Of a DNA stretch of 64,000 nt, positions 2,314-60,814 are shown piece by piece. The notes beneath the pieces were generated by a model. That model searched no databases. It had not been told where the DNA came from and was given only the letters and a program-made list of their open reading frames with translations. Positions within the stretch are counted from its first letter, which is position 1. The number at the start of each line of letters is the position of its first letter. Source of the DNA: Citrus sinensis (lineage: Eukaryota > Streptophyta > Magnoliopsida > Sapindales > Rutaceae); assembly GCF_022201045.2 (NCBI RefSeq), contig NC_068557.1, positions 22,731,501 through 22,795,500 on the forward strand, written 5' to 3'. The translations under genes and the position numbers were made by a program.

Positions 2314-2621
2314 CACTTGGGCTAACGAGTAAGTTCACAAATGTGAGGAAATGGGTTCGAGCCTCTGCAGACGCATTACAGGTGTTTAATTTAAATGTTT
2401 TTCCTTGGAACCCCAGAACTTGAGTGAAGGCAGTCTTTCTCCCAGGAGGGGAGTTGACGTCTTTTGAATATTTGAGAGGGTTAAAAAATCTGAGCGGTGC
2501 CATATCAACTTTGATGTCAACAGGTCTCAGTACATATATTTGTATGATTGTACATATCAATTATACTCTCATATAATATGAGTTGTAATTTGAGTAATAA
2601 TCTCATGTCATAAAAAAAAAA
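2314..2621 (+). mobile_element. tRNA-derived SINE with 21-bp target-site duplication
   Basis: A 300-bp element starts just after 2313 and ends in a poly(A) run at about 2612-2621. Its head has a pol III A-box-like stretch (TGGGCTAACGAGT, about 2318) and a B-box-like GGGTTCGAGCC at 2353-2363, as in plant tRNA-derived SINEs. A perfect 21-base direct repeat flanks it at 2293-2313 and 2622-2642 (it begins TAATAAGGAGAAG). That is the mark of LINE-type, target-primed insertion. The perfect duplication suggests a fairly young insertion. A truncated relative of its tail lies near 17530. Confidence 0.85.
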
Positions 2622-2642
2622 TAATAAGGAGAAGAAGAGAAC

Positions 2643-3742
2643 TATTTAAAGCCTAAAGACTAGTATTATTTTGAATTTCCTTAACTAAAAATTACAGAGT
2701 AAGTAAGTTACTGCATTGAATCGCTTACAGGGTAGATTCATGAATAGCATTAATGGAGGTTGGTCATCATGCATTAAATATTTTTGGTAAAAAAATTAGG
2801 CAAAGGACAAGGCAGTCATTCAATACAAGATGATGATTTGGCCATTTTAGGAATTCTGAGCCCCACGTGAAAGAAAAGCTTGCTTGCTTTCCAAAAAGTT
2901 TGAGTTGATTGCAGGGACAGATTACAGTAACGGTCCTTTTTTGTGATTTATTTCCTTTCACTTGAAAATCCAATTCAATAGTAAAAAAACAAGGTTTGGT
3001 AAGCTCTGTTTGATAAATCTTTTCTTCAAGTTACTACAAACACACTAACATAATAATTAAAGAAAGAATTACCCATTTCAATGGAAAAGCACAGAGACAG
3101 CAAATGCTTTTTAGCTTAACGCATGGAGAAAGCAAGATTTACGGCCAAGAAAAAAGAGGCAAAAGTAGCATCAGCAGGCATAATTCACATGGATGTTATG
3201 ACCTAAATTTAACTTCAATTCCCTTGTTATCAACTAAAAAGAGGCATGTGAGTGGGGGGACCAGAGGCAAAGGAGATAGAGATATCGTATCAGAAATGGA
3301 GGTGTTTATGGTTTTAATAGATAGGATGTGATTCAGTTTTACTCATTATATTATTGAGATAAAAGCTGCTACCATAACACAGATTAATCGAGTTTTGACC
3401 AACTTTTTTCGCTTTCAAAGTTACAGTAGACCCAAACTTTTTTCTTAATTGAAGAGATTTGACTTTATAATTAGAATGAGAAGTTTCTCAACATTTCAGC
3501 AGCAGATTACAGCCCATATATCTATACGAGTGAATGATGAGTAATACTACGGTGCTTCGGCTCCTTTATGCACCGAATTTTTCATTACGCTCATTAATTT
3601 TTTCATACAAGTAATCATCATATTTTTTTATAATTGCGACTTGAGAGACGAAGGTTCTAAAGTCGGCTCACGTCACGTGGACAACATCGACTTGTTTATT
3701 ACTTGATCAAAGAAGCTCATGGAGAAAACCAATAGAAAATAA
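2643..3742. other. Intergenic DNA, nothing recognised
   Basis: AT-rich sequence with only short open frames that lack homology, codon bias or splice context. I see no gene, RNA or clear repeat in it. Confidence 0.5.
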
Positions 3743-4611
3743 TGTTGTGTTTACTTGCTGGAGTGGGAGTGAGGAGTGTAGATTCCTCCCACTCCAGCGT
3801 TTACTTCCTCTAAATAGGAAGTGAGTGGGAATCCCACTCCGTGAACCCCACCTATTTTTGGAGTGGGGAGTGGGAGTGGGACTCCCATTGGGAGAGGTCC
3901 CACTCCCACCTCTTCCTTTTTTACCCTTTTATTTTTTTTATTTAATTTAATTTAATATTTTATAATTAATAAAATAAAATAAATATTATTATATTTATTT
4001 GAATAATAATATTATATTTAACTAAATAATAATTTGCATTGATTCTAAGTTAAAATTATTTTAAAATAATATTATTATATTAATAGAGAATTAATAAATG
4101 TAATATTATTATATTTATTTTTAAAATAATAGTATTATATTTATTTAATATTAATAATAATAAATAGTTTATTCTAAGAAAATATTAATTTTGTACTAAA
4201 TAATATTATATTATTATTTTATATAATAATAAATTTAATATAATTATATTAAATAAAATAAAATAAGGTTTCATTTTGTATTAAAATTAATAATTTATTG
4301 TTCATAATTAAGAATATTAATAATTATAATAAATTTACAAATATAATAAAATAAATATTATTCATTAAATATATTTTTTATTAGTTTTGTAATTAAAAAC
4401 TATAATTCTTTAAATAAGGATAAAATTGTAATTTGAAACTATTTACTCCCAATCCAAGATAAAGTAAACACATAAATTGGATTCTGATCTCTAATCCATA
4501 CTTCCATTCCAGTGTAAGTAAACAACCTACTCCCACTCCCACTCCACACTCCCAATCCTAGGATTCCCACTCCTCAGGATTCCCAATCCAATCCAAAAAG
4601 TAAACGCTACC
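3743..4611. mobile_element. Harbinger/Tourist-like MITE (non-autonomous)
   Basis: An 869-bp element with short imperfect terminal inverted repeats sharing GTTTACTT (left TGTTGTGTTTACTT; right, reversed, GGTAGCGTTTACTT). A 3-bp TAA repeat flanks it at 3740-3742 and 4612-4614. Both ends carry many copies of a GAGTGGGAGTG-type subterminal motif in opposite orientation, which could be transposase binding sites. The core (about 3930-4440) is almost pure A/T. There is no coding capacity. TAA duplications and subterminal repeats point to PIF/Harbinger; a hAT-like origin is less likely. Confidence 0.7.
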
Positions 4612-16134: not shown

Positions 16135-16826
16135 GGAAAAATATCCATCGTCCACCTATTTTTTACACCTTTTTAAAAAATACACAATTCCTTTATTTTT
16201 TGTTTGGAATTCACCTAAAGTTACATTTTGTTTCACTTTTCCACTTCCGTTTGGAATCCGTTAAGAAAACTAACGGAAACTTTAAAAAAATATCCATTTT
16301 ACCCCTCAAAACGAAAATTACAATTTCACCTTAAAAATTACAAAAAATAATCAGATTAAATCTAATTATTTTCCCCATCGGTCAATAAAGAAATTAATTC
16401 CACAACCATTAAATGCAGGTTTTTTTTTAAATATGTTTGTAATTAGAATGCTAAATTATAACAGTAGTATTAAAAATAGCTCAATCTCGCAAACCATCAA
16501 TTGAATTTAAGATAAGTAGAGTTTTATTATTCATTGAATTATAATCTGTAGTAGTTAAGATTTTTTTGTACTTCATTAACGTACTAATAATGATATTCAT
16601 CATTAAATCTAATTATTTTTTGCATTTTTTAGGGTGAAATTGTAATTTTCGTTTTGGGGGTAAAATGGTCATTTTCTTAAGTTTCCGTTAGTTTTCTTAA
16701 CGGATTCCAAACGGAAGTGGAAAAGTGAAACAAAATGTAACTTTAGGTGGATTCCAGCTAAAAAATGAAAGAATTGTGTATTCTTAAAAAATATGTAAAA
16801 AACAGGTAGACGATAGATATTTTCCT
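16135..16826. mobile_element. Mutator-type MITE with ~235-bp terminal inverted repeats
   Basis: The two ends of this ~690-bp stretch are long inverted copies. The left arm (16135 to about 16375) begins GGAAAAATATCCATCGTCCACC-like; the right arm (about 16600-16826), reversed, begins GGAAAATATCTATCGTCTACC-like. Both continue through CACTTCCGTTTGG and ACGGAAACTT blocks. A T-rich 9-bp repeat, TTTTTTATT, flanks it at 16126-16134 and 16827-16835. Exact edges slide by one base because of a T run. Long arms and a 9-bp duplication are Mutator traits. No coding sequence. Confidence 0.75.
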
Positions 16827-34559: not shown

Positions 34560-39201
<4,642 letters not shown>

Positions 39202-40868
39202 CCTCTTTCTCTCGATTTCAGACCAGGATTCAGATCTTCTTCATTTAAAACTTGTGTTGTACGTTCGCGTTTTGGCGCCGGCCTTGAGTTTTTACTACGC
39301 TTTCAAGAGTCAAGAGTCACCATTTACTGTGCTGAAGGTATCGAAGCTTCTAAAATTTCTTTGTCGTTTTGTGACTCGGTTGTGTGCTCGGTCTTATTGT
39401 ACATTTGTCAACAAATTTTTGCCCTTCGATTTAATATAGATATAAAGTTAGTGCATCGAAATAAAGGGTCCAAGGCTTTATTCTTGTTCCATAAAGCTCA
39501 GTGTTATATGAAAAAATTAAGGTTAGTTGAAATTTGATACAGCAGAGTACAAAGAAAAAGTAAAAGTAATATCACATCAAAACTACTGTTACTTGTTTGT
39601 TCAATCAAATAAGTGGGGTAGGCGATGAATTCACGAGCATTCATCACATGATGAATCATGAGTACATAAAAATTTTATTGTTTATTCATATACAGATGTC
39701 ACAGTTATTTATTTATTTATTCTTTTGAGTTTAAATCTTATTAGCATGTACTTTCATGAGATTTTTAAGCTACTTGGTGTATAGCCACATTAATGTTCAT
39801 TTGATCTTTGAAGGTCGCTTGAATATTTTTCATAGGAAGATTCATTGAAATTTATTCAAGATTCTCAACTTCTACCGAATCTAATTTTTCTTTTTAGTTT
39901 CAATCAAATTACTGACCGATTTTATTAAGTTGCCAATCTTTTATTTAGAATACAAATAAGATATTTCAAGCAATTGATGAAATCAATGCATCCTTATGAA
40001 AAAAAATGATGAAATATGAGGATGAAAATAACATTTAGGCATTTAAGAAAGAGCTTTCTTGCAGCAGAAGTAAAGAAAATATATAGCCAGTTTGAATTGT
40101 TCCTTCGTTAATAGATTCTTGTATTCCATTCAAGATGCTTAATGAAAAAAAAAACGATTAAAGGAATTGTGGATCCACAATGAATTGATTTTTCACTTTT
40201 CCATCCGAATTCTCTTATTTATTTGTACTGTAGCTTAAAAATAAGAGTCTCAAAAAGGTTTTAGCTTAGAGTTTTCTTTTATTTTAGATAAAAATATCTA
40301 ATTAATGAAATTTTGATGAAGTTAGGTATTTGAGGGATATGTCGTTTGATTATGTTTACTAATTACGACATAATGTATTCTAATTAAAGTAAACGACATG
40401 TCATACATATGCACCAACACATACTCTAAAGGACTTGTCGTCCATTTTTCATCTGTTGGTTTTCTATTTTCACGTCACTCCATATGTTAATTTACTGCAT
40501 AAACAACGTGTAGTTTTACCACTACAAAATATGTAGAATCAAAGAGTTTTTAGTCATTCTTGTCGAACAAGTAAAATCGACCTGAATTAATTAGTTAGTG
40601 CATGTTTAGATTACTTTTAGAAGGCTCAATAATGATTTTGAAAAGTTAAAAGTTAATTTTGGTATTTGGTAAATTTTTTTAGAAATTGCTTTTGGTAAAA
40701 TTACTCCATCCTACTAAAGATTTTGAAAGTCATAGACACACTAATTTTTCAAAATTTGATTTCAAGACTCACTTTTATATTTAATGCAACTTCATATATA
40801 TCCTCATATATATTATCGAAACCCAAAATTATCCTTATTAAATAGGAAATAAAATTATTAAATTTAAA

Positions 40869-41101: not shown

Positions 41102-42433
41102 TATGGATATGTTTATAAATGTTTAAATAAATTTTATTCAATGTAGTCATTTATATTCTTACAATAATTTAATTGTAATATTTACTAAATATATATGACC
41201 GCTTTTAAAATTCACAGCACTTCTAAAAATAAATTTTATGAAACGTTTAACTAAAACTGTTAACAACTAATTATTTTTACAATACAGCTAATAATAATTA
41301 TTTTAAAAGTTACAGCATTACCGAACTGACCCTTATTTTAATTTTATTCAATTTAAACTTATTTACTTATATAGATGCTCGAATCCAGATTGGAATAGAA
41401 TTGTTAATTTATTATCCTGTTAATATTTTTATATTTAGTTTTCAATAAAAAAACCCTCTTTTTATTTTGTTACTAGATTATTCATCTCTGTGTAATCAAG
41501 TCTTCATACAAATATCATTTTAAGAATTTAACCATCCAAAACAAAACTCTAAGGATAAGTTATCGAGTTTCCTTGTTGAGTAATGCTATATTTACTGTCC
41601 CAATTGTTGTGTCACCATTAAAATTTCTCCAATTGGATATTATATATAAATCTCCATGTGGAAAAAACTGCTTGGCCTTCGCAACTTTAAATTATGATTA
41701 TTCTTGTCAAACAAGGAATTAATTACTTTAGTTTATAAGTTTACGATTGTACAAAAAAAAAGAATAATATATAGAGTCTTTGAGCTTCCTTTATTTTGAG
41801 TTATTTATTTTAGTTTTACCGCAATTTTAACTTATTCGCTTATATCTAGATCCAAATAGGTTTATTTTCTCAAAAAGATTTTCATATTTTCAATAAAATT
41901 CTTTTTTTTTAAAAATTTTATTTCTCTATAAGAATTCAGACAATCAAGTCATGCTCTTAATCAAGTGATCAACCTATCCAATGAGACAATTTATACGAAC
42001 AAATTTTATTGTTATAATCTAATATTAGAACTCCTTATTCTATACTTGTCGCTTTTTAAAAAGTTAGAGCGTCAAAACAAAAAGATTAGGGCTTGCCTTT
42101 ACATGAAACCCAATGTTACATGAAAAATTAGGGCTAGTTAAAATTTGATGCAGCGGAGTAAAAAGAAAAAATGAAACTAATATTACGTCAAATGTGCCAT
42201 TACTTGTTTGTTTAACCAAATAAGTGTTGTAGGCTGCAAATGATGAATTCACGAATGTTCATCAGTTAAGGAATTCTGCGTAAAAGAAATTTTTACATTT
42301 TATTTATATAAAGATGTAAAATTTATTTATTTATTTATTCTCTTGAATTTAGATCTTAATTAACATATATTTTTTCATGAATTAAATACTTTTGTATAAA
42401 GTAAAGAAAACTCCAAGTTACAACCATATTAAA

Positions 42434-42785
42434 CCTTAAACAACCACTCAAAGCTATCAGGGTCGAGAGGGGAGAGGCTTATACTTATAAAGGGCTAATG
42501 GATAAGATGAAGGCTTGGGGTTGTGAAGGGGACGGGGGATGGTCAGAAGATGTAGGGCAAGGTTGGCACTGTGCTCGTGTCATCAGGCAATATAGGTGAG
42601 GAAGCAGGTTGCTGAAATAGGATTGACAGGTTGCTCTTCGGCTGGGAGATATGTGGCGTGGGCTCATATGGGCAGGAGACAAGGATTGTTCTTGTGAAAT
42701 GGTTAGAGGCCCTGAAGGAGTCTAATGTGTTAATGCCTTGGTAACCTAATTTACTTAATAATGTATAGAGCCGAGCTCCGGACAT
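42434..42785 (-). pseudogene. Second copy of AUG3 exon 1, interrupted
   Basis: From ATG 42785 the minus strand reads MSGARLYTLLSKLGYQGINT, the AUG3 N-terminus, with the 5' flank also matching 39202-39310. After LD the homology is broken by about 240 bp of unrelated, GC-richer sequence (about 42475-42715). It resumes at 42434-42475 with the SFEW part of the exon. No later AUG3 exon follows. It is therefore a fragmentary tandem duplicate. It lacks the first nonsense codon of the 39-kb copy (Leu here), so that stop arose after duplication. Confidence 0.8.
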
Positions 42786-43440
42786 CCTCTCTCTTTCAAT
42801 TTTAGCAAATACTATTGATTAGGATTCATATATTTTTTATTTCAAACTTGTGCTTACATTTAGCGTTTTGCTACCGGTCTCGAGTTTACTACATGGGTCG
42901 TGCTATGTTATATCATATGTAATATACAACATTCCTTGTGTTGATGCCAAAAAACGACCTCAACAGCTGAAGTTATTTTTTTTGGGGAATAACAACACGA
43001 ATTCAAGCTCCAATATCAATCCGACCGTAGCTTTTTACACCTACCAACCACAAAACACAGTTAGGAGGTTCTGGTGTAGATCGTCTGATGCTTAAGTCAA
43101 ATGTTTTGTGTATAAGGAAAGAAAAATGAAAAAGAGGAATTCAAAAAAAGTTCAAATCCAGGAATTCTCTAATGGAGGTATTGCAAATCTTGTAGAAATC
43201 AGAAAGGCTTTAAGATTAGTAACATGTAGAATTTTTGGTTAATTTTGCCAACCCTTCAAACCAATTCTCTCTTCAGTTTAAATAAGCCCTCTGGTTGTGG
43301 ACGGTTACAACAATTTCAGCACACTTACTAGTAGTTATTGGTGGTTATCTATCAATTGTGAGCAGTTGAGAAGGTAGTGGCATACTACTCCCCTGAAAAA
43401 TAGGCCATGTTTATCAAATAGATTCTCAGGTCGAACTACT

Positions 43441-43558
43441 ACAGTTTGTATCTATAAATTAAGTCGTCCATATATGCTTCAAGTTGTAGCTATAAACCAG
43501 GTCGTCAATATAGGCTTCAAGTTGCACTTATAAACTAGGTAGTCAATATAGTTTTCAG
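43441..43558. repeat. Three-copy minisatellite, ~40-bp unit
   Basis: Diverged units of the form AAGTTGTAGCTATAAACCAG followed by GTCGTCAATATAGGCTTC occur in tandem inside the Mutator-type element. Confidence 0.7.
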
Positions 43559-44512
43559 GTTTCAGGTCGTACATATTGAACAAGTTACTCATATAGGTTT
43601 TGGGTCGTGCATCAATAAAATCCAACTTAAACACTAGTCCTCCGATTTTCAATATCGAGAAGTTATTACTGATGTTGAAAACTAATTGTTGAAAAATAGA
43701 AATTTTTTACAAAACTAACACTAACACTAGTTCTCTAGTTTTTAATACTAAGAAGATATGAACGGTATTCGAAATTGAAACAACAAAGAAAAGACAATAT
43801 GGCCTCGAGTTGAACAAAGACAATGTGGAGTTGAACGGAGATAATTTCGAGCTGAATAGGCTTAAAAGTTAGTAAAAATTTGACAAAAATAATAGAGATA
43901 AGAAAAATAAAAATAAAAACAAAGAATAAATAAAGAAATAAGACCATAAAGAAAAGCAGAGGGCACGTGACTTAAAGGCATAAAAAAAGTAAAAACACAC
44001 ATTTTTATTACTTTCCCCTTGCATTTGGCTTGTGTGTCATCTCTATGCTCACACTCACTTTTTCACAATAAAACCTAGCGAAATTTTAAGTTGCCGCCGT
44101 CCTGCAATATTCTGTGCTCATTAAAAGCTGTTGGCTCAGCCACAACGGAGCCTTTTAGTGAGTGTCCTGTGCGCCATCTTCTTCTTTATTCCTTTTTCTT
44201 CTCTTTTTATTTTTTGAAAGCTAGTACATACATACATACATATATTTATATAACTCTCTTCTTTTTCTTCTTTTCTAACCGAAATATTTTTCTTTTTTTT
44301 GGTTGAAACTGAACTCCTCTCCTTTTTTTTTTTAAACTGACATTTCTTCGTCTTCTTTTTTTTTTCCTCAAATCAAAACCTGGTTTTTTTTAACTGAACG
44401 TTTTCTTCTCTTTTTTGTTTTTTTTTCAAACGAACTTTTTTTTTTTTGGTGAATGCCACGCTCATTGTCATTTTTATTTTTGATGTAGAGCCAATACTGT
44501 GCTGCTTGTTTT

Positions 44513-45024
44513 TGTTAGGAAATTAGTGGGTGAAGCAGACACACAGCTAAAATGAAATTGGAAGAAAAATAAAGAACAAGCACAATAGAGAACACCAGAA
44601 ATTACGTGGTTTGGCTTTTAGCCTACGTCCACGGGCGAAAACAGAAGGAAAATATTATACTAATGAAAAAGAGTTACAAGTACTGTAATATTTTAGCTTA
44701 CTACCCAAAATCTCAATACACCCAAACTCTCAAATCACTAAACACAAGAGTTTTTTTTTTAAGCTCTACAAAACTCTCTGGTTTTTTTCTCTCTCACAAA
44801 TTGAATGCAGAAACCAATGGAGGGCTTCCTTTATATAGTCAAAATTGACTATTATTTTAATACTTTTTTTTCTTGTTTTCTTTGGGCGGCACCTATTTTT
44901 CTTCCTCTTTCTTCTTTGTCAAAGTTTCCCTTTTTTTTTCTTTGCTTGGGCGGCATCTACTTAGACTTTAATTTAGGTGGATTTTTCATGGTTTGGCACC
45001 GCCCAAGACTTTGACATTCTAACA
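44513..45024 (-). repeat. 3' LTR of the nested copia (left copy)
   Basis: Begins TGTTAGG and ends TTGACATTCTAACA. The exact inner end could be a few bases earlier at TTGACA, because the outer end of the other LTR is TTGACA. Confidence 0.8.
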
Positions 45025-45092
45025 CTTGGAGATTAAATTGAGAATCAATCAATCTCCACACCATATTTTCTGCTTCGCCATAATCATATTGT

Positions 45093-48000
45093 CTATGTTT
45101 CTTCTAGGCCACAAGAGGATCTACTCCAGATAAACTTGTTAGTATTTATCGGCTTGGTCAAAACATCTGCTAGGTTCTCCTTCGTATGGATTTTCTTCAA
45201 ATCTACACTTCCATCTTCCACTACTTCTCGAACGAAGGGATACTGGACTCTTATGTGCTTTGTCCTAGAATGAAAGGCTGGATTTCTTGCAATATGCAAA
45301 GCACTCTGACTGTCACAAAACACATGAATTTTCTGTTGTTTGTGCCCGAGCTCCTCCAATAACCTTTGTATCCAAATAGCTTCCTTGCAAGCTTGTGTAG
45401 TTGCCATGTACTCTGCTTCTATTGTAGATAAGGCCACAACGGCCTGCAGTTTCGAAACCCAGCTTACAGCTGCTCCCACAAGTGTAAACACATAGCCAGT
45501 AGTGGATTTCATTTTATCAAGATCTCCTGCAAAATCTGAATCCACATAACCCCTGACAGTAAACTCTAATCATTTATAACATAATGCAACATCTGAGGTT
45601 CCTCTGATGTATCTCAGAATTCTCTTCACAGCTATCCAATTCTCTCTACTAGGATTCGTCATGTATCGACTAACTGCTCCCACTACTTGTGCAATGTCTG
45701 GTCTAGTACATATCATAGCAAACATCAAACTTTCCACTGTTGATGCATACAGTACTCAAGACATCTTCTTCCTTTCTGTTTCATTGCTAGGACACATACT
45801 TGAGAATAATTTGAAATTAACAGGAAGTGGGATAGAGATTGACTTACAATCTTGCATGTTGAAGCGCCGTAAGATTTTCTTCAAGTAATTCTTTTGTAAA
45901 AGCCAAATCTTCATATTATTTCTGTCTCGGTGAATTTGCATTCCTAGAATCTTGTTTGCTGGCCCCAAGTCTTTCATTTCAAACTCCCTAGCCAACCGTG
46001 CCTTCAATTCTTGGATTCGATCTTTGTTGGGGACTGCTACTAATATGTCATCCACATACAACAGCAAAATAATGAAATCATTATCTTCAAACCTTTTGTA
46101 ATATGCACAATGGTTTGAACTAAGTCTGTTGTATCCAAGGCTCATGATGAAGGAATCAAATCTCTTATACCAACACCTCGACGCCTGTTTGAGACCGTAT
46201 AAAGATTTGTTCAACCTACAAACCAAGTTTTCCTTTCATGTTTCTGCAAAACCTTCTGGTTGGAGCATATATATTTCTTCTTCAAGTTCTCCATGAAGAA
46301 ATGCAGTTTTCACATCTAACTGCTCAAGATATAAGTCAAAGATAGCACACATTGCCAAGACTACTCTGACTGTTGTGATTCGAACAACCGGAGAAAATAT
46401 CTCGTTAAAGTCAATACCTTCTTTCTGAGCATATCCTTTCACCACTAGTCTTGCATGATACCGCTCAACTTGGTCATTGCCATCACGTTTGATCTTATAA
46501 ACCCATTTGTTACCAATGGCTTTTCTTCCGTGTGGTAGTGGTACAAGTTCCCATATCTTGTTCTTGTGTAGAGCTTCAATTTCTTCCTGCATTACTGTCA
46601 TCCACAAAGCAACATCTGAGCTGTTTAAAGCTTCATGGAAAATTGAAGGCTCTTCATCCTCTGTTAGAAGACAGTATGCAACGTTGATCTCTGTGACATA
46701 CTCCAAGTGCCACGTTGGCGGTCGTCTCTCACGAGTTGACTGACGAACTTCTGGAGCTTTGGACTCGACTAGTTCTTGTTCTTCGTGTTCTGGTGCTGCT
46801 TCAAAAGAATTTGAATCTTCTGGATTATTTTCCATATATACCGGCACAATCTTTGACTTTTCTTTTGCAGTGTTATTATCTTAATCTTTCCTTTGTAGTT
46901 GATCTTCTACAAAAATAACATCTTTGCTGATGACGATCTTGTGGGCAGTGGGGTCCCACAAACGATACCCCTTTACTCCATCAGCATATCCCAAAAGATA
47001 CATCTTCTAGATTTTGCATCCAGCTTTGTTCTTTCTTAGGCATTGTATATCATGTACACATGACATCCAAATGCATGTAGGTAGGAATAATCAGCTGGCT
47101 TTTCAGTTCACATTTCCATCGCTATCTTTAGCCCAATAGCAGTAGATGACGATCAATTTACTATATAATAAGCAGTTTTGGCTGCTTCTGCCCAGAATGA
47201 CCCATAATGAATTGAGTAGACTAGCAGTCCTCAACATAGCTCTTATCCATTCTGTAAGAGTTCTATTCATCCGCTCTGCTAGTCCATTTTGTTGAGGAGT
47301 GTATGCCACCGTGAGCTGCTTCTGAATACCTTCTTGCTTACAGAAAGCAAGAAACTCATTGTCTGTATACTCTCCACCATTATCTATCCTCAAGCACTTG
47401 ATCTTTATACCAGATTCAAGTTCCATCCGCGCTTTGTATTCTTTAAACACTAGAAATACATATAATTTTTTCTTAATTGGATACACCCAACATCTTCTAG
47501 AATAATCATCAATGAAAGTCACTATGTACTTTGCACCTCTCATGGATATATCCGGTGATTCCCAAATATCAGAATGAATCAAGTCTAGAATGCATTTACT
47601 TCTAGCAATAGATCTACTGAATTTTAATCTATACTGCTTACTTGTAACACAATGCTCGCAAAATGGTAAACTTACCGATTTGAGCCCTAGAAGCAATTTT
47701 CGCTCAGAGAGAATCTTCAAACCTTGTTCCGATATGTGGCCAAGTTTGAGATGCCACATCATCGTTGACTCTTCTCCATTTGATACAACACACGCATCAG
47801 CCTCCTGTAGTGTTTCTCCTTTAAGCATGAATAGATTAGCACCGATCTCTTCTGCCTTCATCCATACAAGCACTCCTTTAACAATCTTTATAATTTCATT
47901 CTCCACATGAGTTTTGCACCCATGATTGTCTATTTGTCTCAAAGACAATAGATTTTTCTTCAGGTCATTGACATGTCGTACCTTCCTAATTGTGCGAATT

Positions 48001-49022
48001 GTACCATCAAACATTTTTATTTTGATAGTACCAATACCAGCGATCTCCAAGGTATAATCATTACCCATATATACAGATCCTCCTGAGAGATGTTCATATG
48101 TGTGGAACCATTCTCTCCGAGAGGTCATGTGCCGGTTAGCTCCTAAGTCTATAAGCCAGATATCAGATAATTGTTTTCTGCCTTCTGAAACAGTTATTTC
48201 CTTGCTGTAGAGAATTTCGCCATCATCCGAGGTACTTGCTACGCACCCTTGAGCATTTGATGACTCAGGTTCTTTGCCCTCTTTTCTCTTTTGGTTACTC
48301 CAACACTCTTTGTTGACGTGCTCTTTCTTGCCACAGTTGTAACATTTAACATTTTTCTTACTTCTGGATTTTGATCTACCATGATTTTGACTCCCACTGG
48401 GGCCACGTTCCGTTGATCTCCCTCTCGTTACCGATAGCGCCTTCGCTTGCTGCGAACTTGCTTGTCTGTTTTCTTTATTTTTCTGCCTGCTCTCCTCATT
48501 TAATACGGAGGCTGCAATATCGTCGAAAACTAAAATGTCCACTGGATTGTTGTTCGTCAGGTTGATGATGAGATGATCACATGAATCTGGTAGACTTTGA
48601 AATAGAAGCTCTGCACGTTCATTCTCCTCTATAGTATGACCCAACTTTGTGAGTTGTGAAAATAGAGTCTTTAAGGTGTTGATGTGGTCAGTCACCATTG
48701 TAGATTCCGCCATTCGAAGAGTATAGAGTTTCTTTTTCAAGAAGATTTTGTTGTGTAGTGACTTGACCTCGTACAATTTTGTAAGAGTATCCCATATTTC
48801 CTTCGCTGTATTTTTCTCTGCCACACTGGATAATACTCCGTCTGCAAGTGCCAAATATAGATCAGAAATGGCGTTCATCTGTCATCAGTTATCAGTTATC
48901 TCCATGTGCCTTTCTCCAATTGCTGCCAAGCAATTATTTTTCCTTAATATAGCTTTCATCTTCATTTTCCATAATGAAAAATTATTTCCGTTAAATTTCT
49001 CAATTTCATACTTTGCCGCCAT
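45093..49022 (-). pseudogene. Broken copia gag-pol polyprotein
   Basis: Domains follow the Ty1/copia order on the minus strand. Gag starts near 49022 (MAAKYEIEKFNGNNFSLWK). Then come a CCHC knuckle (CYNCGKKEHVNKEC, ~48.3 kb), a protease site now reading DLGANRHM in place of the usual DSG, and integrase with HSDIW and PQQNGLAERMNRT (to about 47.2 kb). Reverse transcriptase lies in two pieces (46236-46847 with KTAFLHGELEEEIYM; 45756-46226 with LLYVDDILVA). RNase H is 45093-45545 (STIEAEYMA). Stops and frameshifts separate the pieces, and the protease serine is lost, so it cannot encode a working product. Confidence 0.9.
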
Positions 49023-49365
49023 TTTGTTGATAAATACCGCACACAAGATAGTGTACCACCGTGAATAGTTATGAGTATGTGTAAGAATACACACCAGGAA
49101 AGTTCCCAGGAAAGACTGGAGGGGTCACAATGGTCCCACTTAAAACCCAAACTCCTTAAGCTCTTATCGCCTTTGTGACAGAACTTTCCTAGACATGTAC
49201 AAAACCACATAGTTGCTTTACTCACACCACTATTCCCTGCTTTGCACCGCAAAATTCTTAGATCGCTCCTACCGTTTCTCGTGAACAGTACCGTATACGT
49301 GAATAGTACTGTATACGTAAACAATACCCGACTCTAAAAAATACAACCAATAGCTCTGATATCAC

Positions 49366-49910
49366 TGTTAGGAAATTAGTGGGTGAAACAGACACGCAGC
49401 TAAAATGAAATTGGAAGAAAAATAAAGAACAAGCACAATAGAGAACACCAGAAATTACGTGGTTCGACTTTTAGCCTACGTCCACAGGCGAAGACAGAAG
49501 GAAAATATTATACTAGTGAAAATGAGTTACAAGTACTGTAGTATTTTAGCTCACTACACAAAACCTCAATACACCCAAACTCTCAAATCACTCAACACAA
49601 GAGTTTTTTTTTTTTTTAAGCTCTACAAAACTCTTTGGTTTTTTTCTCTCTCACAAATTGAATGCAGAAACCAAAATAGAGGGCTTCCTTTATATAACCA
49701 AAATTGGCTATTATTTTAATATTTTTTTTCTTGTTTTCTTTGGGCGGCACCTATTTTTCTTCCTCTTTCTTCTTTGTCAAAGTTTCATTTTTTTTTCTAT
49801 CCTTGGGCGGCATCTACTTGGACTTTAATTTGGGTGGATTTTTCATGATTTGGCACCGCCCAAGACTTTGACATTCTCCCCATGGTTTGACACCACCCAA
49901 GACTTTGACA
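49366..49910 (-). repeat. 5' LTR of the nested copia (right copy)
   Basis: Homologous to 44513-45024, with about 34 extra bases duplicated at the outer end. The GTTTT target duplication follows at once. Confidence 0.85.
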
Positions 49911-51372
49911 GTTTTTGCCACTTCCTCACATTCCAAACATTTTTATTTGAGCTTGCAAACAATACTGGTGAGTTGTCTCATCTCAAGCACCATATGCTTG
50001 TTGAATTCCTATACTTTTGAATGTAAATTTTGCTTGGCATTGGGATTGTTGCGCTTTGTATTGTGTTGTATGCTGCCACTAATGACTAAAGCAATATGGT
50101 GTCGATAATGAAAGTTTGCTATCATTTTTCTATACTGACAAAGAAGATCTTGATGCATCGTGTATTGGCATTGAATGGGAAGTTAGGTTTTTAAGTGTGT
50201 TTATTAGATAACAATTAAGTTTAGGGGCGATAATGATTTTCCTTATAGTATCCAATCGAGCATGAGTGGTAATGGGGAAAATAGAGAAGATAATGAAGTA
50301 AAGTTAAGTTATAGTGCAATAGAGAATGATTATGAGAGAACAAGAAGTGAAATACATGGGTAGACTAATGGCGAATCCGATACACAACTTAGAAATGACG
50401 GAGATAAACATGAAGAATATGGAATGAACAGACTGAACTTTGACACAACAGAAAAAAGAGATTGAAGAATTGAAAAAGGAATATTAGATTCCCAATGATA
50501 TTACGCCTAGGTTACTGAGGGAAGATAACATGGCCAGCAAATTGGGTGATTAAGAAATTGTGGTTAACATGAAGATGTTTAGACATGGATTCAGGGGGCA
50601 ATTCAACCTTATTTTGCTCGGATGTTAGTGAGATTAGGTTTGAGTCTTGGTCAACTTGACACAAATGGTTGGAGGATTTTAGGCCGTATGTATATTGGAA
50701 ATAGTTTGACTTGAGAATCTATTTGATAAAATGTGGCCTATTTTTTAAGGTAGTAGTGTGCTACTGCTTTCTCAACTGCTTACAGTTGATGGATAACCAC
50801 CAGTAACTACTAGTGAGTGGGTTGAAATTGTGGTAACCACCCACAACTAGGGGGCTTATTTAAACTGAAGAGTGCATTGGTTGGAGGGGTTGGTAAAATT
50901 AACCAAAAATTCTACGTGTTATTAATCTTAAAGCCTTTTTTACTTTCTACCAGATTTGCAACACCTCCATTAGAGAATTCCTAGATTTGAACTTATTTTG
51001 AATTCTCTTTTTCATTTTTCTTTCCGTATATACAAAACATTTGACTTACACATTGAAGGATATACGTTGGAACCTCCACCGAGTGTCCTAGCTGTGTTTT
51101 GTTGTTGGCAGGTACAAAATGTTGTGATCGGATTGACGTTGGAGCTTGAATTCGTGCTATTATTTTCTAAAAAAAATAATTTCAACTGTTAAGGTCGTTT
51201 TTCGGCATCAACACCTTAAGTTGTCACTAAAAACAAAAAAAATTGTACCATATAAAACAATTGAATTATTTTGAATGACAATATATTTGTTGTAACATAA
51301 TCCAGCCCTTACATTATAAATTATTTTGAGTGACAATAGATATAATGTAACATAATCCAGCCCTTACTACAC

Positions 51373-52019
51373 TTTCGAAGTAATTGGTTACTGCCGAAGG
51401 TATCAAAACTTCTATAATTTCTGTCATTTTGTGATTCAGCTGTGTGCTCGGCCTCATTGTATAAATTTGCCCTTCGATTTAACATAATTAACAGTATAAT
51501 AAGCGAAGCTGATCATTCGTGTTTAGATTATTAAACATACTTGTCTTACAAATTACTAATATTTATCAAATATAAGGCATAATCTCAAATCTTATAACTA
51601 CCGCATTCAGTTATTGTTTTTATTCTATTGAATACCTTTTACAAATGATTTATTTGTAAATTATTTCCTGAAAGGATCCTTTACAATATCATTTGCTCCA
51701 CGTCCCATGACACCCCCCCCCCCCCCAAAAAAAATAAAATAAAATAAAGAGCTCATCACTGCATGTCTGCATTCCTTCAAAATCGGTTCACAGGTGAAAG
51801 CCTCGGCAAATCTGAGGCCATCAAAGCTGAAAATTCTACAAGCATTTAGCTACAGAACTGATATCTCAGCTAAATGTTTACAATATATCTATCTGAAACT
51901 AATGACATTCTATCAAGATCCTCGTCTCCGCTTTCCAGCTTTGCTCACAGACAATAGCCCTTCATTCTTAAGAAGAGCATTGCTAAGATTGTTAACATCA
52001 ATCCTCTGCAGCCCTTTCG
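51373..52019. other. Continuation of the duplicated AUG3 5' flank, then 3' flank of the next gene
   Basis: 51373-51500 matches 39310-39440 (GAAGGTATC.AA.CTTCTA, TGTGTGCTCGG). A run of about 13 C sits at 51713-51725. The rest is AT-rich and probably includes the 3' UTR of the minus-strand gene ending at 52020. Confidence 0.6.
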
Positions 52020-54144: not shown

Positions 54145-55528
54145 GAGTTATGTTATTTGCCCTGGGTCAAACTCGAAAACAACAAAGGAACGACGCCGTT
54201 TCAATTTCTTTTTTTTCCCTCATTCAAGTTAAACGACGTCGTTTTGAGAAATTGTTACAGTCGAAATTGGTTTCTCTGTCTTCGTCTCAACTCTCACAGC
54301 CCCTTCCCCTTCGTTTCAGCTTGGTTTTTTTTTTTTTTAATTCATGAAAAAATTTTATTTGACATTTTTAATACACCTTTATGCCAAAGATTTTCATCCG
54401 ACGCTGAAACTGAAATACATAGAACATATATGAAGCAACAATTATCTACGAGATTTTTTTGCTACAAAGAAGTGGGGCAAGGAGGAATCGAAATGTCAGT
54501 GATCCCTTCTAACATCATCACCACACTCTTCATAGAAGGACGAAGAGCAGGTCAATCTTGGACACACCAAAGCCTCACCTTGATCATGTTCTCCAGAGTC
54601 TTCTTATTTACTTCTTCGCCATGGACAAGCTTATCGAACTCTCTATCAATGAAGCACTTATAAGTCAAGTTGATAAAAACAATTTCCTCTGGTTTTGAAG
54701 GATCAATCTCCATGTTTCTTCTGCAGCAAACAATTTCCAAGAGCACTACTCCATAATTGAAAACATTTGCTTTCATTGATATTGGAGTATTCTTAGACCA
54801 TTCTGGCGCCATATAACCTCTTGTCCCTCTGATCAATGTGAAAGTCCTTGTTTGGTCTGGCATCAACAACTTTGCCAGCCCGAAGTCTGAGATTTTTGCA
54901 GTCCAAAATTCATCCATCAGAATGTTGTGAGGCTTTATATCACAATGAATGATTGGCGCTTCACATTCATTGTGGAGATAGACGTTACAGCTTGGTTGAG
55001 GCAAAATCAACAACAGTCCCAAATTGCTCTCTTTCTCTTTGTTTTCTCTTCGTCTCACAACAGCCCCAAATTGTTTTCTCTTTCCCTTCACCTCACAGCC
55101 CCTTTCTCCTTCTATTTCTCTGTTTCCCTTCCCCTTCATTTCACAGCCACCATCACGCACCCACCACACCGATAGCCATCAGCCTCGCAGCCACCATCAC
55201 ACATGGTTCCATCACAAATACCCAGCCATCAGCACCACCAAAAGACAACAAGAAAAGTTTGAACAAGGATGAGTGTCGGCATTGTCGTTGAAGGATGAGT
55301 TTCGGCATTTACGGTTGCTGCGAAAATTTCGTCAGTAAGAAACAGAGAAACAGAAGGAGAAAGGGGTTGTGAGACGAAGGCAAAGAGAAACCAATTTCAG
55401 CTGTAATAATTTTGTCAAAACGACGTCGTTTTAGGACTTGGATAAGGAGAAAAAAGAGAATGAAACGATGTTGTTTATTACTTTCAGGGTTTGACCTGAG
55501 ACTTAACTCGGGGTAAATAGCATTTTCC
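54145..55528. mobile_element. Pack-MULE carrying a receptor-kinase gene fragment
   Basis: A 1384-bp element with ~200-bp terminal inverted repeats. The left arm (54145-54340) and the reversed right arm (about 55335-55528) share TTATTTGCCC/CTATTTACCC, AAACGACGTCGTTTTGA, GAAATTGGTTTCTCT and CTTCGTCTCA. Flanking 9-bp repeats TTATGATAA (54136-54144) and TTATGATGA (55529-55537) differ by one base. The 9-bp duplication and long arms are Mutator traits. The interior carries a host kinase fragment (54462-54983) and arm-like CT-rich sequence (54990-55190). It has no transposase, so it is a non-autonomous gene-capturing element. Confidence 0.85.
54462..54983 (-). pseudogene. Captured C-terminal kinase fragment of a G-type lectin receptor-like kinase
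   Basis: Starts abruptly at YLHNECEAPIIHCDIKPHN (catalytic loop) and runs through DFGLAKLL, the GTRGYMAPEW activation-loop end and VVLLEIVCCRRN. It ends with RPSMKSVVMMLEGITD and a natural stop after IPPCPTSL (54462-54464). The ATP-binding N-lobe, transmembrane and lectin parts are missing. An in-frame stop sits at 54552-54554, where the family has Glu before PALRPSM, and the helix-F aspartate in the usual ADVFSYG is Asn. It cannot be an active kinase. The closest family, from memory, is the LECRK/RLK1 group of S-domain kinases. Confidence 0.9.
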
Positions 55529-55895: not shown

Positions 55896-55900
55896 CTATA

Positions 55901-56317
55901 TGTGAAGCCAAGAGTTAGTTACATTCTGTTACTGGTGAGGTGGCAGTGAGTCAGCTTATGTGGGCCAGCAGGTGGTTAATTAGTTATGACCAAGAGCTGT
56001 ATAAATAGCAGAGCCAGGGCTGATCATTGGTGATCTTTTTCCGACTAAGTTGAGTGACTAATACTGAGAGTGAGGATTCTTGGTTTAGTGAGATTTGTTC
56101 TCTGACATTTGTGGTCACATTGTAATCAGTCTTAAGCAATAAAGTTTCACACCCGTTTGGGTTCTTCAGCCGTGGATGTAAGTACCTTGGTACTGAACCA
56201 CGTTAAAATCTTCTTCATTGTTTTGGTCTTTCAGTTCTTGGTTCTTTTCTGTTCTTGCGTTTGTTTTGACCAATCTTGGTGATTGATCAAGTGTTATTAT
56301 TCATCTTTTACTCAACA
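55901..56317 (+). repeat. 5' LTR of the young copia
   Basis: TGTGAAGCC...CTCAACA. Contains a likely promoter TATAAATA at 56000-56007 and a polyadenylation-type AATAAA at 56138-56143. Confidence 0.95.
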
Positions 56318-60333: not shown

Positions 60334-60397
60334 GACCATGCTAGTGGTTGCTGAAGAGGAAGGTGGAGCTGTTTCAGAATGAACTAAGGTGGAGATT

Positions 60398-60814
60398 TGT
60401 GAAGCCAAGAGTTAGTTACATTCTGTTACTGGTGAGGTGGCAGTGAGTCAGCTTATGTGGGCCAGCAGGTGGTTAATTAGTTATGACCAAGAGCTGTATA
60501 AATAGCAGAGCCAGGGCTGATCATTGGTGATCTTTTTCCGACTAAGTTGAGTGACTAATACTGAGAGTGAGGATTCTTGGTTTAGTGAGATTTGTTCTCT
60601 GACATTTGTGGTCACATTGTAATCAGTCTTAAGCAATAAAGTTTCACACCCGTTTGGGTTCTTCAGCCGTGGATGTAAGTACCTTGGTACTGAACCACGT
60701 TAAAATCTTCTTCATTGTTTTGGTCTTTCAGTTCTTGGTTCTTTTCTGTTCTTGCGTTTGTTTTGACCAATCTTGGTGATTGATCAAGTGTTATTATTCA
60801 TCTTTTACTCAACA
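60398..60814 (+). repeat. 3' LTR of the young copia
   Basis: Same length and, on reading, the same sequence as 55901-56317. Followed by the CTATA target duplication. Confidence 0.95.

Follow-up and report, generated by a model that had tools for sequence, protein, structure and literature searches.

A 64,000-nt stretch of the Citrus sinensis genome (C2:22731501-22795500; hereafter the window) contains a nest of four layers: a pseudogene flank derived from AUG3 (HAUS-augmin3), a miniature inverted-repeat transposable element (MITE), a derivative of a gypsy-type long terminal repeat (LTR) retrotransposon whose two LTRs face each other, and a copia retrotransposon. This architecture is well supported, and its layers, boundaries, target-site duplications (TSDs) and empty sites can be followed letter by letter and in alignments. 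Judged by their sequence relatives, the inverted ends of the third layer are LTRs of a gypsy-type family and not the terminal inverted repeats (TIRs) of a Mutator-like element (MULE). The best overall explanation, which we regard as probable, joins the four-layer nest to a reverse transcription that would have turned back on itself and whose product integrase would have inserted. A previous sequence-only reading of the window had correctly recognized that the elements are nested, that an empty site is preserved and in what relative order the events fell, but had counted three layers; its middle layer, an 8.5-kb MULE, is two, the MITE and the inverted-LTR element. The features are as follows, in window coordinates, with L numbers for genomic loci and C numbers for contigs.

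38408..39212, minus strand: AUG3 pseudogene copy A (PF14932, stops, match to the C9 copy)
39292..39300: empty site TTACTACGC in the copy A flank (letters and flank alignment)
42434-42465, minus strand: further exon-1 piece of copy C (by eye)
42721..42885, minus strand: copy C, AUG3 exon-1 start and 5′ flank, left of the nest (alignment)
42886..42894: left 9-bp TSD of the MITE, TTACTACAT (letters read)
42895..42938, plus strand: left part of the MULE-like MITE, beginning GGGTCGTGCTATGTTA (other MITE copies match the joined query through the insertion point)
42934..42938: left 5-bp TSD of the inverted-LTR element, CCTTG (register test and letters)
42939..43633, minus strand: gypsy-type LTR, U5 end outermost, sense minus (inner boundary by eye)
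43634..44512, minus strand: gypsy interior adjoining the LTR, part 1 (matches the interior of L009, L020, L022 and L028)
44508-44512 and 49911-49915: copia TSD, GTTTT (letters read)
44513..49910, minus strand: copia LTR retrotransposon with broken frames (RVT_2, Retrotran_gag_2, rve)
49916..50697, minus strand: gypsy interior, part 2, with an abrupt stop at the inversion junction (matches L009, L020, L022, L024 and L028)
50698..51213, plus strand: inverted gypsy LTR fragment, last ~512 bp, U5 end outermost (alignment)
51214..51218: right 5-bp TSD of the inverted-LTR element, CCTTA (register test and letters)
51219..51363, plus strand: right part of the MULE-like MITE (joined query and letters)
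51364..51372: right 9-bp TSD of the MITE, TTACTACAC (letters read)
51373..51486, minus strand: copy C 5′ flank, right of the nest (alignment)

The inverted ends are read as LTRs because other copies of the repeat are solo LTRs and a 14-kb element with direct LTRs, with 5-bp TSDs and a polypurine tract (PPT). We searched the 299.7-Mb assembly (11 contigs) with the left inverted end, scored 40 matches of 104 candidates and compared 20 fetched family loci (L009-L028). Thirty-seven of the 40 scored matches begin at query position 50-54; of the remaining three, one is the window itself and two begin at 68 and 84. In all fetched loci but L026, where it starts slightly inside, the repeat opens with TGTTGATGCC or a close variant (19 of 20); these loci share at most a few bases of the outermost 44 bp on the left and 150 bp on the right of the window element. 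Family copies begin at TGTTGATG or a close variant and, except for L016, are flanked by 5-bp TSDs where this is testable. The common inner boundary lies about 780 bp in, at CCAACCCGAACA or a variant, followed by TCAGTCCCCTAGTTTTC or a variant in copies with an interior; in sense it reads as the PPT AACTAGGGGACTGA, then TGTTCGG, and the family LTR measures about 700-780 bp. A leader beyond the other end is common to four loci (L012, L015, L023 and L027) and in L027 reads, in sense, TCTTGGCGCCGTCTGTGGGGAACGG, resembling a primer-binding site (PBS), with TGGCGCC exact in L027 only and degenerate in the other three.

Two solo LTRs carry 5-bp TSDs (L021, TGTGT; L025, ATTAA), as does the 14-kb direct-LTR copy bounded by L020 and L015 (CCAAT). 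In the 14-kb copy, open reading frames (ORFs) have matches to Retrotrans_gag (4.4e-9) and RT_RNaseH (2.2e-13), with RVT_1 below the cut-off, placing gypsy gag and pol domains in a full-length copy; no integrase match above the cut-off was obtained in the family ORFs scanned. The family has the TG..CA termini, PPT and, in ordinary copies, 5-bp TSDs of LTR retrotransposons; the two LTRs of the window copy are inverted instead of direct. The lineage may be Tat/Athila-type gypsy, which the family resembles in the PBS-like TGGCGCC of L027, the Retrotrans_gag and RT_RNaseH domains of the full-length copy and a 3′-region ORF matching PF04195, a putative gypsy-type family (L024 and L033); unlike the window element, ordinary members of that lineage have direct LTRs. 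A related gypsy copy at L009 (501-6384) has an interior with inverted blocks, matching parts of 44020-50560, between direct flanks.

Within the window, the inverted ends of about 500 bp noticed in the sequence-only reading are indeed present (42938-43438 against 51214-50702, 83.7% identity over 514 columns). That reading had missed that they set in 44 bp (left) and 150 bp (right) inward of the 9-bp duplication. The left LTR has a PPT-like AAAATCGGAGGACTAG directly inside it, and the left arm runs 2356 bp to the junction once the copia is excluded; the right arm measures 516 bp. Homology to L009, L020, L022, L028 and one L024 arm stops at 50697, and to the other L024 arm at 50683, with a TG microhomology (by eye) at the junction. 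Across 42-52 kb, the segment L022 2830-3329 finds nothing beyond short matches; the best, 23 bases, lies within the copia LTR (E 1.7e-5). The right side of the element holds no notable match to the left U3 part. A six-frame Pfam scan of the interior (43413-44507 and 49916-50728, E up to 0.1) gave no match, so no MURA-type transposase or remains of one. We rejected the right arm as minus-strand strong-stop DNA because, with a TATA-like TATTTAAAC about 345 bp from the U5 end (by eye), a 512-bp arm would extend into U3.

The outermost inserted layer is a MITE that other genomic copies show undisturbed. When its two outer pieces were joined, with one 5-bp TSD removed, and used as a query (matches taken at E up to 1), 15 matches were obtained, 10 of which lie elsewhere in the genome and clearly cross the join; another reaches 2-3 bases past it, three come from the window, and the last is a second fragment. 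In a register test on six copies, removing exactly one TSD copy gave the best score in four (L038, L040, L041 and L043). The MITE TSD agrees at 8/9 positions in the window, 9/9 in L041 (TAATTATAA) and 8/9 in L038 (the latter two by eye). Because other copies are continuous across the join, and from the L041 and L038 TSDs, TTACTACAY is the TSD of the MITE and CCTTG/CCTTA that of the element inside it. The A of the right-hand CCTTA is probably a later change, since the undisturbed copies L040 and L041 read CCTTGAG and ACTTGAG at the target. The element is short and has a TIR and a 9-bp TSD, as in MULE-like MITEs, a superfamily name that we use tentatively. A pattern search for the MITE end found no excess over the reversed control (206/153 versus 172/184). 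The last 55 bp of the MITE (51309-51363) appear to be a tandem duplication of its end, including the first TSD bases.

The host sequence of the nest derives from AUG3, as first suggested, but does not belong to a gene copy: exon 1 of copy A has two stops, and an open exon 1 is present on contig C9 (L045). A Pfam scan matched PF14932 on the minus strand at ~38.3-39.1 kb (E 6.6e-10) and found no family on the plus strand of 30-39 kb; copy A resembles the C9 copy at 39012-39212, 38974-39021, 38703-38839 and 38408-38613. The AUG3 copies in the window are pseudogene copies. Among the fetched loci, their 5′ flank is duplicated only between these two, because homology to C9 stops at 39212. The 9-bp duplications at 42886-42894 and 51364-51372 bracket the 8.5-kb insert exactly as had been described, and the related flank of copy A is uninterrupted at 39292. 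In the pairwise alignment of the joined copy C flanks with 39120-39460, 244/304 columns are identical, with 56 further gap columns, and the block across the junction contains no gaps. Taken alone, the left flank (42735-42892 against 39151-39298) is 72% and the right flank (51392-51486 against 39330-39438) 76% identical. The refuting outcomes that had been named, a lack of inverted homology or of flank homology, were thus not obtained.

Around the AUG3 copies, direct repeats at 39441-39759 and 42057-42380 (75% identity, 2.6 kb apart) lie between the two pseudogene copies. We dropped a circular permutation of the AUG3 flank as the reason for this match ahead of copy C; 39504-39800 is a dispersed repeat, because parts of it match ten other places in the genome, and the direct repeats, part of that dispersed repeat, are possibly the ends of an old insertion. 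About 255 bp at 42466-42720 split exon 1 of the second pseudogene copy (by eye). A 71-bp segment within the AUG3 pseudogene (38898-38968) is 99% identical to contig C10 and is perhaps organelle-derived.

The innermost layer is a Ty1/copia element by its gag-int-RT order, direct LTRs and 5-bp TSD; its last ORF (45093-45566) has no Pfam match. The GTTTT duplication at 44508-44512 and 49911-49915 bears out its described insertion inside the larger element, and the LTR divergence check gave a Kimura two-parameter (K2P) distance of 0.049 over 506 columns. The K2P order (copia LTRs 0.049 < inverted arms 0.151 < AUG3 flanks 0.227) is consistent with the nesting. At substitution rates of 7e-9 and 1.3e-8, and if the arms were identical at insertion, the inverted element would be roughly 6-11 Myr and the copia 2-3.5 Myr old; these ages are rough. 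The succession of events is as follows: the AUG3-derived pseudogene flank existed in two local copies; a MULE-like MITE entered one of them at TTACTACAY with a 9-bp TSD; a gypsy-type cDNA, made of two facing LTR copies with U5 ends outward and only 3′-end interior between them, would have entered the MITE at CCTTG with a 5-bp TSD; and the copia later entered the gypsy interior at GTTTT. The two empty-site controls, the AUG3 flank and the MITE, fix this order and the exact target bases.

For the origin of the inverted element, we infer a copying error. Minus-strand DNA synthesis would have started at the U5/PBS boundary and, after about 2.36 kb (copia excluded), switched from RNA onto a minus strand; copying of that strand as far as its U5 5′ end would have left U5 at both ends of the molecule, and integrase would have inserted it like normal cDNA. 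Such a turn-back would account for the U5-out orientation, for nearly symmetric arms with small loops (L024 and L032, below), for short microhomology and for a clean TSD. A few other inverted copies in the genome suggest that the error may recur.

We pooled several LTR searches, with the best 40 candidates scored in each, into a sample of 72 LTR matches placed by their U5-side coordinate (a few stop short of the U5 end). Pairing neighbouring matches within 30 kb gave 12 direct, 5 U5-out and 0 U3-out pairs, against a mean of 0.13 U5-out pairs under random placement of 72 ends (one contig's extent guessed); the lack of U3-out pairs among the sampled matches is suggestive only. In a tree of 28 LTR rows that includes the five inverted pairs, the window among them, the two arms of each pair are sisters (window 99/98; others 99/96, 100/98, 100/98 and 100/100); the pairs therefore arose separately or were homogenized.

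The clearest counterpart of the window element is L024 (C8:23624407-23629386), a 5.0-kb palindrome of 96.2% identity with U5 ends on both sides and the TSD ATATA (5/5), in which an ordinary interior reverses at a CCA microhomology around a 37-nt loop. With arms that differ by about 4%, this palindrome is unlikely to be a product of misassembly. L032 (C5), palindromic at 92-96% with a 190-bp loop, is a probable third case beside the window and L024. At L036 (C9), inverted arms of 80-86% enclose 4.9 kb that has no matching arms. Although it first looked like a clean case, it is doubtful because of a UDPGT ORF in its middle, and it may reflect gene capture or, just as likely, a rearranged piece of host sequence. 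The fifth pair (C6:16634558-16649663; L004, L006, L010 and L011) is a chromosomal duplication: a 2.15-kb inverted duplication of 95.5% identity, its copies about 15 kb apart with copia-like sequence between. Two further candidates were discarded, L033 (C2:5128223) being rearranged and L034 (C6:14954251) reading as an ordinary element with a deletion; L031 (C9:20690798), palindromic at 76% with no detectable LTR, was kept outside the pair count.

In L022 coordinates, the turn-back points lie within about 250 bp of one another (window, 2829; L024, 2819-2858; L032, 2613-2644), and that of the LTR-less L031 falls at 2821-3078. L024 and L032 adjoin in the tree and their turn-back points are about 200 bp apart. 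This clustering hints at a preferred place; it is biased, because L031 and partly L032 surfaced through a query centred there. That the family recurrently integrates as two-U5 inverted molecules, with reverse transcription turning round close to a favoured position some 2.1-2.6 kb from the U5 end, is a proposal that we advance only tentatively and consider open to serious doubt.

Several observations weigh against the turn-back explanation or the evidence beneath it. It leaves the short right arm of the asymmetric window element (2356 versus 516 bp) unexplained, and one more step is required before a self-primed hairpin becomes a two-ended duplex. The window TSD matches at only 4/5 positions (CCTTG/CCTTA), and in the register test the preference is for one base fewer in L042 and for four fewer in L030. 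Among the family, L016, apparently a solo LTR, has no TSD. Five of five inverted pairs being U5-out is weak alone (one-sided 0.031; 0.0625 without the C6 pair; 3/3, or 0.125, without L036 too), and a TSD is found in only two of the five, the window and L024, that of L024 being the simple sequence ATATA. L032 lacks 134 bp of one U5 end. L036 has no visible TSD (CTCTA/CCCTC), an internal 132-bp stretch of it recurs beyond its right end, and its 485-aa UDPGT (glycosyltransferase) ORF (2e-22, at 2441-3895 of the locus) lies between the inverted gypsy LTR arms. The C6 pair carries an LTR plus 1.49 kb of host flank in both arms.

The main rival, which we think unlikely, is that host end joining linked two incomplete gypsy cDNAs, each with a single U5 end, head to head and that the product integrated at both U5 ends. 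The asymmetric window arms would suit two differently truncated molecules, and the junction microhomologies seen by eye (TG in the window, CCA in L024) would suit end joining; symmetry down to a 37-nt loop in L024 and a 190-bp loop in L032 is not expected from independent truncations. Less probable still is an ordinary insertion later rearranged in the chromosome through inverted duplication or gene conversion. The C6 pair, with host flank in both arms, shows that this has happened to the same family, and L036 is possibly a further instance of a rearranged segment. In both the window and L024, by contrast, inverted homology ends at the LTR end (in L024 within ~12 bp) with a TSD on both sides, and a rearrangement would need to stop at the LTR end twice. 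It is highly improbable that independent insertions of two gypsy elements, in opposite directions, were followed by loss of the DNA between them: nested and adjacent insertions are common in plants, yet both outer ends adjoin the same 5-bp target, across which other MITE copies are continuous, and the two arms are sisters in the tree. A MULE with 500-bp TIRs, proposed from the inverted ends and the 9-bp duplication around the whole, is refuted for the inverted repeat, which begins well inside that duplication, has LTRs with a PPT and 5-bp TSDs as its other copies and encloses an interior with no Pfam domain in six frames; the MULE reading holds only for the outer MITE.

DIRS-1-like elements are retroelements with inverted terminal repeats, like the window element, but use a tyrosine recombinase and are not known to make a TSD; the window element differs in its 5-bp TSD and its LTRs of a gypsy-type family. 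If reverse transcription did turn back and integrase inserted the product, inverted-LTR insertions would record in the genome that a molecule with two identical U5 ends had integrated, a plant gypsy integrase would accept two U5 ends in nature, and hairpin-forming loci of this kind would be able to make double-stranded RNA against their own family and could silence it. Inverted-LTR insertions also mimic DNA transposons with long TIRs, as happened in the window. The literature searched, with subscription journals mostly outside its coverage, held no account of a plant LTR retrotransposon that had integrated by two U5 ends. Template switching has been described as the source of complex LTR retrotransposon insertions flanked by TSDs (Sabot and Schulman 2007, PMC1950507). 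These resemble the turn-back proposal in that aberrant template use during reverse transcription yields an odd daughter that integrates once with a 5-bp TSD; they differ in having three LTRs and two cores, the window element having two facing LTRs with only 3′-end sequence between. The word beginnings invert, palindrom, opposite and hairpin are absent from the main text of that paper. LTR-pair searches can discard inverted-LTR insertions: in a cucumber study (PMC4600303), two opposite-facing LTR pairs were removed from its list and not studied.

Elsewhere in the window, 420-bp direct repeats at 55898-56317 and 60395-60814 (99.8% identity, 4.5 kb apart) are probably the LTRs of a very young LTR retrotransposon. 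A protein kinase fragment lies at 54555-55178 (PF00069, E 5.6e-22), and an inverted repeat at 16138-16361 and 16602-16823 is 90% identical over 224 bp around a 240-bp spacer.

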